From: a candidate division Kazan bacterium RBG_13_50_9
GTDB taxonomy: Bacteria > Patescibacteriota > Kazan-3B-28 > UBA10110
Length of the DNA stretch: 41,389 nt
Direction of reading: 5' to 3'
Assembly: GCA_001772255.1 (NCBI GenBank)
Contig: META01000003.1
Location: 183,745-225,133, forward strand
Shown here: positions 33,779 to 41,389 of the stretch, piece after piece
Layout of the letters: each line of letters starts with the position of its first letter
How positions within the stretch are numbered: the stretch's first letter is position 1
Translations under genes and position numbers: made by a program
Notes under the pieces: generated by a model
What the model was told of the DNA's origin: nothing
Database searches by the model: none
The model's input: only the letters and a program-made list of their open reading frames with translations

Positions 33779-35285
<1,507 letters not shown>

Positions 35286-40267: not shown

Positions 40268-40304
40268 CTATAGGAGAAAAACAGGTCTGGGAGCGAGAAA
40301 ACTA

Positions 40305-40333
40305 TTGACTGGGAGCGGGTTTTGTGCTACGTT
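40305..40333 (+). promoter_or_regulatory. Promoter candidate for the right-end gene
   Basis: TTGACT is followed after 17 bases by TACGTT with an extended TGC. The -10 box is poor. It would start the transcript near 40340, just at the folded leader. Confidence 0.45.
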
Positions 40334-40336
40334 TAG

Positions 40337-40418
40337 GGTGTAAGCGTCTGTGCTTATACAACGCTGAGGAGGCGGTTTAACCCGCAAGTTCCGGTGAACC
40401 GGAAAGCCTCGCAGACAG
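40337..40418 (+). promoter_or_regulatory. Folded 5' leader, riboswitch-like
   Basis: Hairpin A: GTGTAAGC/GCTTATAC with loop GTCTGT. Hairpin P2: GCGG-TTTAAC-CCGC. Hairpin P3: TTCCGG-TGAA-CCGGAA. GAGG/CCTC joins P2 and P3, and the downstream CAGAC can pair with the loop GTCTG of hairpin A, forming either a pseudoknot or an alternative stem. The ribosome site GGAG is about 15 bases later. No known riboswitch class was recognised. Confidence 0.5.
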
Positions 40419-40442
40419 TTGGTTATCATAAAGGAGATTTCA

Positions 40443-41333
40443 ATGCAGAAGTCGATTAGTGCGGCCCAGATCAAGCAGATCTTGGGTTTTGGGAGTGATG
40501 TACTGAAGGCGATCGGGTTTGGTTTCAGCCAGGTCCAGGCCTTCATTAGTGATTCGGCCCGCGTGGCGAAGTTCAAGGAAGGGCTGACCGCTCTTCTGGA
40601 GGAGGCCATCGCGCTGAATCCGTTCAGCAAGGAACGGGTCAAGCAGGCCTGGTTTTACCCGAAGAACTGGCAGGCCAAAGGCGTAGCCGAACAGGTCATT
40701 AAGCTTGCGACTCTGTTTCCTGGCATTGACCTATCACAGGTCGAGATGCTAGTTGCTAAGCTGGTGGCCCAGAAGCTAGCTGATGGCGTCGCTATCCTGC
40801 CCAAGCTGTCGTTCCTCGCCAAGCTCTGGAACATTGCCGACCCGTATGGTGGGGGCTATGGCCCCATCTGCGAGAAGCTATTCGAACTGATCGCCGCAAG
40901 TCGTTCTTTCCACAACTACCGAACGGGTCAGATGAACGAGCAGCACATCCGCATTATGGAAGATGTCCGGGAGCAGCTAAAGAAGCTGGAAGCCGAGACC
41001 CTTGGCGATGTGCTAGTGCTGTCCTTCAACTTCGGCAACCTCTACGCTGGCTTCAGTCCCCGCAACGCCCGCTTCGAGGCGTTGAACAATAATCAGTTTC
41101 CGCTGATTGCTGCGCAGGTGGCTTGCCTCTTGTTGACGATGCCCGACAGGCTTACCGCTTGGGAGCAGCTCTTTATTGACTGCTCTGGCGATGAGTGGGA
41201 CTGGGACGCCGGCGGCGGCTGGACGCGCTCTGTGTGCTTCGGCTTCGACGGCGGCAAGCTTCTGTTCGACAACAGGTACGCTGACTACGCCAATGACTTC
41301 TTTGGTTCTGCGGTGGCTTTTCTCGGAGTGTAG
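40443..41333 (+). CDS. Orphan protein of unknown function
   Basis: The start at 40443 (MQKSISAAQIKQILGF) has GGAG eight bases upstream; the frame could begin 24 bases earlier, but that lies inside the leader. The protein has 296 residues with no signal or membrane helices. A helical N-terminal half (SQVEMLVAKLVAQKLADGVAILPKL) precedes an aromatic-rich C-terminal part with CSGDEWDWDAGGGWTRSVCFGFDGGKLLFDNRY. Its codon use looks more GC-rich than that of its neighbours, which may mark transfer or strong expression. No domain recognised. Confidence 0.65.
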   Translation: MQKSISAAQIKQILGFGSDVLKAIGFGFSQVQAFISDSARVAKFKEGLTALLEEAIALNPFSKERVKQAWFYPKNWQAKGVAEQVIKLATLFPGIDLSQVEMLVAKLVAQKLADGVAILPKLSFLAKLWNIADPYGGGYGPICEKLFELIAASRSFHNYRTGQMNEQHIRIMEDVREQLKKLEAETLGDVLVLSFNFGNLYAGFSPRNARFEALNNNQFPLIAAQVACLLLTMPDRLTAWEQLFIDCSGDEWDWDAGGGWTRSVCFGFDGGKLLFDNRYADYANDFFGSAVAFLGV

Positions 41334-41389
41334 CGGCTTGGGGGTTGGCCCTTTGCGACTCTTGTGATTTGCGTTCGTTTTGCGGCGGG

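Follow-up and report, generated by a model that had tools for sequence, protein, structure and literature searches.

The closest described counterparts of the cassette reported here are the diversity-generating retroelements (DGRs) of CPR/Patescibacteria (clade 2, PMC8144416), which combine a template repeat (TR) and a variable repeat (VR) that differ specifically at adenines, an Avd gene in company with a DGR-type reverse transcriptase (RT), and a C-terminal VR in a target protein without recognisable domains, clade 2 targets being reported there without a Pfam family. The Kazan locus has each of these attributes, including the RT motifs LGNLTSQ and YADD, and as a DGR cassette it is ordinary for CPR, with nothing unusual about it. 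The available text of PMC8144416 uses none of the words 'promoter', 'untranslated' or 'expression', and does not mention a structured leader on a target; in our literature search, likewise, we met no account of a DGR target with a structured regulatory leader, and nothing on how the DGR targets of CPR are expressed. Few hypermutated proteins are as poorly understood as these.

The leader that precedes the target gene, one of three families here termed classes A, B and C, is best compared with orphan cis-regulatory RNA motifs and riboswitch candidates, with which it has in common a 5' position, a covarying multi-helix fold, an invariant junction and association with one gene type. It differs from them in that the Kazan leaders are confined to one small CPR order and have no match in Rfam 15 (gathering threshold; class A, B and C loci where scanned), and in that three architectures serve one gene type, with no ligand and no metabolic gene. 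At E-values up to 10, Rfam gave only HOXA11-AS1_6 (17.5 bits against 50) and a plant-virus hairpin, both far below cut-off. The autoregulatory leaders of ribosomal proteins are compact folds that lie shortly before the ribosome site, with conserved loops and no terminator. By analogy, the class A leader may be likened to such protein-bound translational leaders, as it too is compact, has conserved loops, ends before the ribosome site and has no terminator; however, its product is neither a ribosomal nor a known RNA-binding protein, and it matches no Rfam leader family. Apparently neither the leader families nor their link to DGR targets have been described before, whilst the DGR type itself is known.

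We consider it likely that the locus holds a separately transcribed DGR target gene, whose mRNA starts with a conserved cis-acting folded leader, most likely one that affects how translation starts or how long the mRNA lasts. With three leader families, each compact and covarying, there would then be a concrete and testable point of entry into how DGR targets are expressed.

The target gene and its retroelement

The window, by which we mean the whole stretch of 41,389 nucleotides that was analysed (G000:C3:183745-225133), comes from the genome of an uncultivated candidate division Kazan (CPR) bacterium, G000 (625.7 kb; 98.6% completeness). The gene and its immediate surroundings lie at its right-hand end:

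40287..40319, + strand: CTGGGAGCGRG in two copies spaced 22 nt apart, one overlapping the -35 hexamer and the other upstream of it
40305..40333, + strand: promoter-like TTGACT-17-TACGTT, read by eye, conserved in G004, G003, G007 and G005
40431..40436, + strand: ribosome-binding site AAGGAG, read from the sequence
40443..41333, + strand: target gene (DGR variable protein), 296 aa, ATG start, with the VR at its 3' end and homologues in G004 and G003
41200..41329, + strand: VR, the last 130 bp of the ORF region, with its TR at L003:4388-4517, beyond the window
41380..41389, + strand: left part of a probable terminator for the target gene, GCGGCGGG...CCCGCCGC followed by T6, with 7 consecutive Ns spanned at the window end

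Searching the genome with this region gave a second match past the end of the window, identical to the first at 113 of 130 positions (87%). As all 17 mismatches over the 130 bp fall at adenines of the downstream copy (chance expectation ~3e-12), the pair carries the TR/VR signature of a DGR. Between the TR and the RT, on the minus strand, sits an Avd gene (NF033474, 83.3 bits against a cut-off of 80; PF22296, 6.9e-22), and beyond it the RT (PF00078, 5.7e-23), in which LGNLTSQ corresponds to the DGR-type GxxxSQ motif and YADD is also present; this is the only RVT_1 match found in the G000 genome. With adenine-confined TR/VR substitutions, an RT bearing GxxxSQ near the TR, and Avd, the 296-residue product is, on its sequence, the variable protein of a DGR. 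An earlier note, made from the window, had called the gene an orphan, which is wrong in substance; the product has no Pfam or NCBIfam family. The DGR escaped that first reading because the VR and TR lie at and past the window end.

As to a C-type lectin (or Ig-like) fold around the VR, neither Pfam nor the PDB gave a sequence match for the product, and its predicted structure (mean pLDDT of 44.8) was too poor for a fold search. It is probably a surface recognition (lectin-like) protein; no relative pointing to a viral or phage origin was found. The GC-rich stem and T6 that follow the 296-codon ORF suggest that the target gene forms its own transcript. The promoter-like sequence at 40305-40333 is absent from the list produced by a consensus promoter scan. 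The paired CTGGGAGCGRG copies, the only exact ones in the window, could be an operator or a promoter-class box, and the copy overlapping the -35 hexamer is also found before other Kazan genes.

Beyond the window, at L003:5431-5600 (G000:C3), a palindromic repeat element is inserted in-frame in the RT ORF, reminiscent of the palindromic elements inserted in Rickettsia genes; a further copy lies at L003:7128-7200 (86% identical over 74 bp), and the insertion is missing from the RT of G004 and shorter in that of G003. Elsewhere, the window holds a full-length 16S rRNA gene (33779-35284), no 23S or 5S gene, and eight scattered tRNA genes.

The class A leader

A blastn search with 201 bp over 59 genomes, made with no structural model, found relatives of the leader in four other genomes (G004, G003, G007 and G002), placed alike before the start codon; with G000, class A thus stands before one gene in each of five Kazan genomes, and three of these genes are DGR targets. 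The earlier note had seen a leader of three hairpins that stops close to the ribosome site, had thought a ligand-responsive or autoregulated RNA possible, and had named covariation in relatives and recurrence before other genes as checks; the comparison that follows bears out the layout of leader, ribosome site and ORF, and supports a conserved, covarying, cis-acting RNA leader. The leader (~90-100 nt) lies between the promoter and the ribosome site, ending ~10 nt short of AAGGAG, and has the following parts:

~40337..40422, + strand: class A structured leader (whole), from blastn relatives in four genomes, consensus fold and covariation
40340..40357, + strand: hairpin P1, 40340-40346 with 40351-40357
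40358..40422, + strand: P2/P3 closing helix, 40358-40362 with 40418-40422, 40364-40366 with 40412-40414, and 40369-40373 with 40406-40410
40374..40383, + strand: short hairpin P4, 40374-40375 with 40382-40383, or 4 bp in the other register
40389..40404, + strand: hairpin P5, UUCCGG/CCGGAA
40436..40453, + strand: candidate start-codon hairpin, GAUUUC-AAUGCA-GAAGUC

The consensus fold, obtained with RNAalifold from the five class A sequences (G000, G004, G003, G007 and G002), comprises hairpin P1 and a closed three-way junction formed by P2 (CAAC/GUUG plus CUG/CAG), P3 and the inner hairpins P4 and P5. Changes on both sides are seen in 8 of 28 pairs, as against 2.4 in shuffles, none of 500 of which scored as high, and 97% of cells are paired, a value that falls to 25-43% once the partners are slid. 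Such compensatory changes occur in P1, P2, P3 and P5 and span two families of the order: P1 has them in two of its seven pairs (with 100% of cells paired), P5 in three of six (e.g. UUCCCC/GGGGAA in G002, with some pairs broken in G007), and in P2 CAAC/GUUG becomes CGAC/GUCG in G007 whilst CUG/CAG is invariant. Four of the five sequences fold by themselves into the consensus. Taken alone, the G000 leader has an unremarkable fold (z of -1.2 and -1.8, within the shuffle range), so the significance of the fold comes from comparison with relatives and not from single-sequence energy. These figures describe a sample of five sequences from one small order, and model R1 was built from the same five that it finds.

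The earlier note had also proposed that GTCTG (40346-40350) pairs with CAGAC (40412-40416), as a pseudoknot or in mutually exclusive folds. Counted on the five sequences, this pairing is not supported: it has no covarying pair and is fully intact in G000 alone, its U-A pair (40347/40415) existing only there, and G007 and G002 each break one further pair. Instead, the partner of the CAG of CAGAC is a nearby CUG that does not vary (40364-40366), and the GUUG that follows pairs, with covariation, with CAAC. An alternative of a different kind does exist at P3/P4, where GAGGAGG offers two partners for CCUC; as both registers are intact in all five sequences, this invariant alternative is uninformative and admits no choice between them.

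At the start codon itself, each of the five class A genes can form a 6-bp stem (of the GACUUC-AAAUGCA-GAAGUC type) in the same position, and this is retained despite MSRS for MQKS in G003 and an extra loop codon in G007, a stem of that length enclosing 23% of control start codons; we regard this hairpin as a candidate with moderate support. The leader, when scanned for terminators, gave no terminator-like site, and comparison of the relatives gave no conserved or consistent arm sequestering the ribosome site; sequestration by the leader was rejected as inconsistent across them.

The genes behind these leaders diverge more than the leaders do. Those of G004 and G003 are DGR targets 73% and 68% identical to that of G000, each with its own TR, VR, RT and Avd. 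The G002 gene is a 41% identical homologue with no RT nearby, and its comparison with the template in G002 C4 gave no match, so that diversification through that template was rejected. The G007 gene has only the N-terminal ~60 residues in common with the G000 product, and an RT was not found in that genome; the leader itself retains 77% nucleotide identity to G007 and 73% to G002, being more conserved than the gene. At this G007 locus (L023, G007:C4, gene from 2817), the class A leader and the N-terminal 60-residue module are fused to an unrelated C-terminal part, an arrangement that, judged by sequence, suggests exchange of a promoter-leader-N-terminus 'cassette'. The earlier note would have been refuted by homologues lacking the leader or by stems without covariation; the relatives in four other genomes have the leader and its stems covary, so it is not refuted. 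One distant homologue, the DGR target of G001 (34%), has no such leader.

Class B and C leaders

Further DGR cassettes came to light through the same promoter sequence, and their targets bear different leaders. Class B leaders occur in G005, G003 C14, G004 (682k) and before a second target-like gene in G002 C4; class C leaders occur in G008 C11, G002 C4 and G004 (697k). Classes A, B and C are, from their sequences, three unrelated architectures before one type of gene. Overall, the start of the target can be read in 11 DGR cassettes; 9 of them have a leader of class A, B or C, and the two without are both in G001; a twelfth cassette (G008 C9), cut by a contig end, stands outside this count. 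As neither G001 cassette has one, the leader is not essential to a DGR target.

Covariance models (R2 for class C, R3 for class B) added members of both classes, which precede genes not known to be diversified, their surroundings being viewed for 1.5 kb each way. Some of the products end in FRFVFVRRK or VFLRRK, and by analogy with CPR proteins such products may be lectin-like. Classes B and C each covary, by pair counts on alignments that had been fitted to the respective model. Other Kazan genes preceded by a leader of one of these two classes are at L025, L026, L027, L031, L068, L069, L074-L076 and L081-L084.

In total, nine genomes of a single order supply every copy, with five for class A, eight for class B and six for class C. 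A scan of 380 genomes of the phylum, with filters that lose weak matches, gave no convincing member of any class outside Kazan; class A was found in none of ~370 other phylum genomes and in no viral contigs, and an exact-pattern scan of genome contigs for class A gave only four already known Kazan contigs. Class B and C matches outside Kazan (L085-L087) were set aside as looking like chance, lying in coding sequence or before an unrelated gene.

How the leader might act

Position, covariation and recurrence before one gene type together point to a cis-acting mRNA leader. That it is instead a spacer folding by chance, conserved only through recent shared ancestry, is a reading that the small number of sequences and the ordinary energy of the G000 fold would permit, but that we judge very improbable, since the compensatory changes (in P1, P2, P3 and P5) are spread over two families, the leader is better conserved than its gene, and four of the five sequences reach the consensus unaided. 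Harder still to credit is a role within the DGR itself, in target recognition or as a recombination boundary, strongly as the leaders are associated with DGR targets: leaders of classes B and C are also found ahead of genes around which no DGR turned up, the class A gene of G007 sits in a genome that yielded no RT, both DGR targets of G001 lack a leader, and ~780 bp separate the leader from the VR. Since undiversified genes bear leaders and some DGR targets do not, we rejected the leader as part of the mutagenesis machinery.

As to what a cis-acting leader might do, the lack of a terminator and of a conserved arm opposing the ribosome site makes attenuation unlikely and favours control of translation or stability, for which three kinds of element come into question. 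A constitutive 5' structure, stabilising the mRNA or keeping the ribosome site clear with no signal involved, is a possibility we would entertain without expecting it: it suits a structure located where the transcript is inferred to begin, unrelated folds could do the job just as well as one another (in keeping with three classes), and the same promoter drives genes without such a leader at L029 and L035, but a pure stabiliser needs no nearly invariant loop and junction sequence. A binding site for protein, e.g. for autoregulation by the product's N-terminal module or for an RNA-binding regulator, is rather doubtful; in G007 all of the product that accompanies the leader is its N-terminal ~60 residues, and the fold lies near the ribosome site, as is typical of translational repressor sites, though the target behind the class B leader of G002 has an N-terminus unlike those of other class B genes. 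A ligand-binding riboswitch, in which a small molecule at the invariant junction (CUGAGGAGG..CCCGYAAG..CCUCGCAG) alters access to the start region, we hold to be unlikely. It would account for a conserved, structured, aptamer-like 5' leader of several helices (with covariation in five genomes), for the invariant unpaired and junction bases and for the two possible registers of P3/P4; against it stand the lack of a conserved alternative pairing that reaches the ribosome site, a product with no place in metabolism or transport, the use of three unrelated architectures for a single gene type, and the lack of an Rfam match. Nor does an expression platform emerge from the scans, which gave no terminator-like site and no consistent sequestration of the ribosome site, the start-codon hairpin being itself a candidate. 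A protein-bound or constitutive element of translation or stability seems somewhat likelier than a ligand sensor.

Returning to the folded leader of a separately transcribed target gene, we suggest that the transcript would begin at the leader's 5' end, that the leader would be read as RNA in the cell, and that it would act on ribosome loading, because it stops ~10 nt before the ribosome site and is followed there by the candidate start-codon hairpin. The leaders suggest a previously unrecognised layer of control over hypermutated proteins, and they also mark undiversified members of the same gene set; what binds them, or how they act, may show at what times these bacteria, which are reduced and probably depend on a host, bring a diversified recognition protein into use. 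A bolder proposal, in which at least three unrelated families of sensing leaders in Kazan CPR make the expression of probably lectin-like genes, both those diversified by DGRs and their relatives, dependent on a signal (host contact or a metabolite, for example), strikes us as improbable.

Finally, TTGACTGGGAGCG with a T-rich stretch after it is found repeatedly ahead of Kazan genes of various kinds (40287-40319, L010, L029, L032, L035 and L070) and may, going by this recurrence, represent a strong promoter class of the Kazan lineage. The genes concerned include those for a possible L,D-transpeptidase and a ClpP-like protein, whose leaders are only ~20 nt long, and at L032 (at 2549) TTGACTGGGAGCG possibly stands before an RNA gene.
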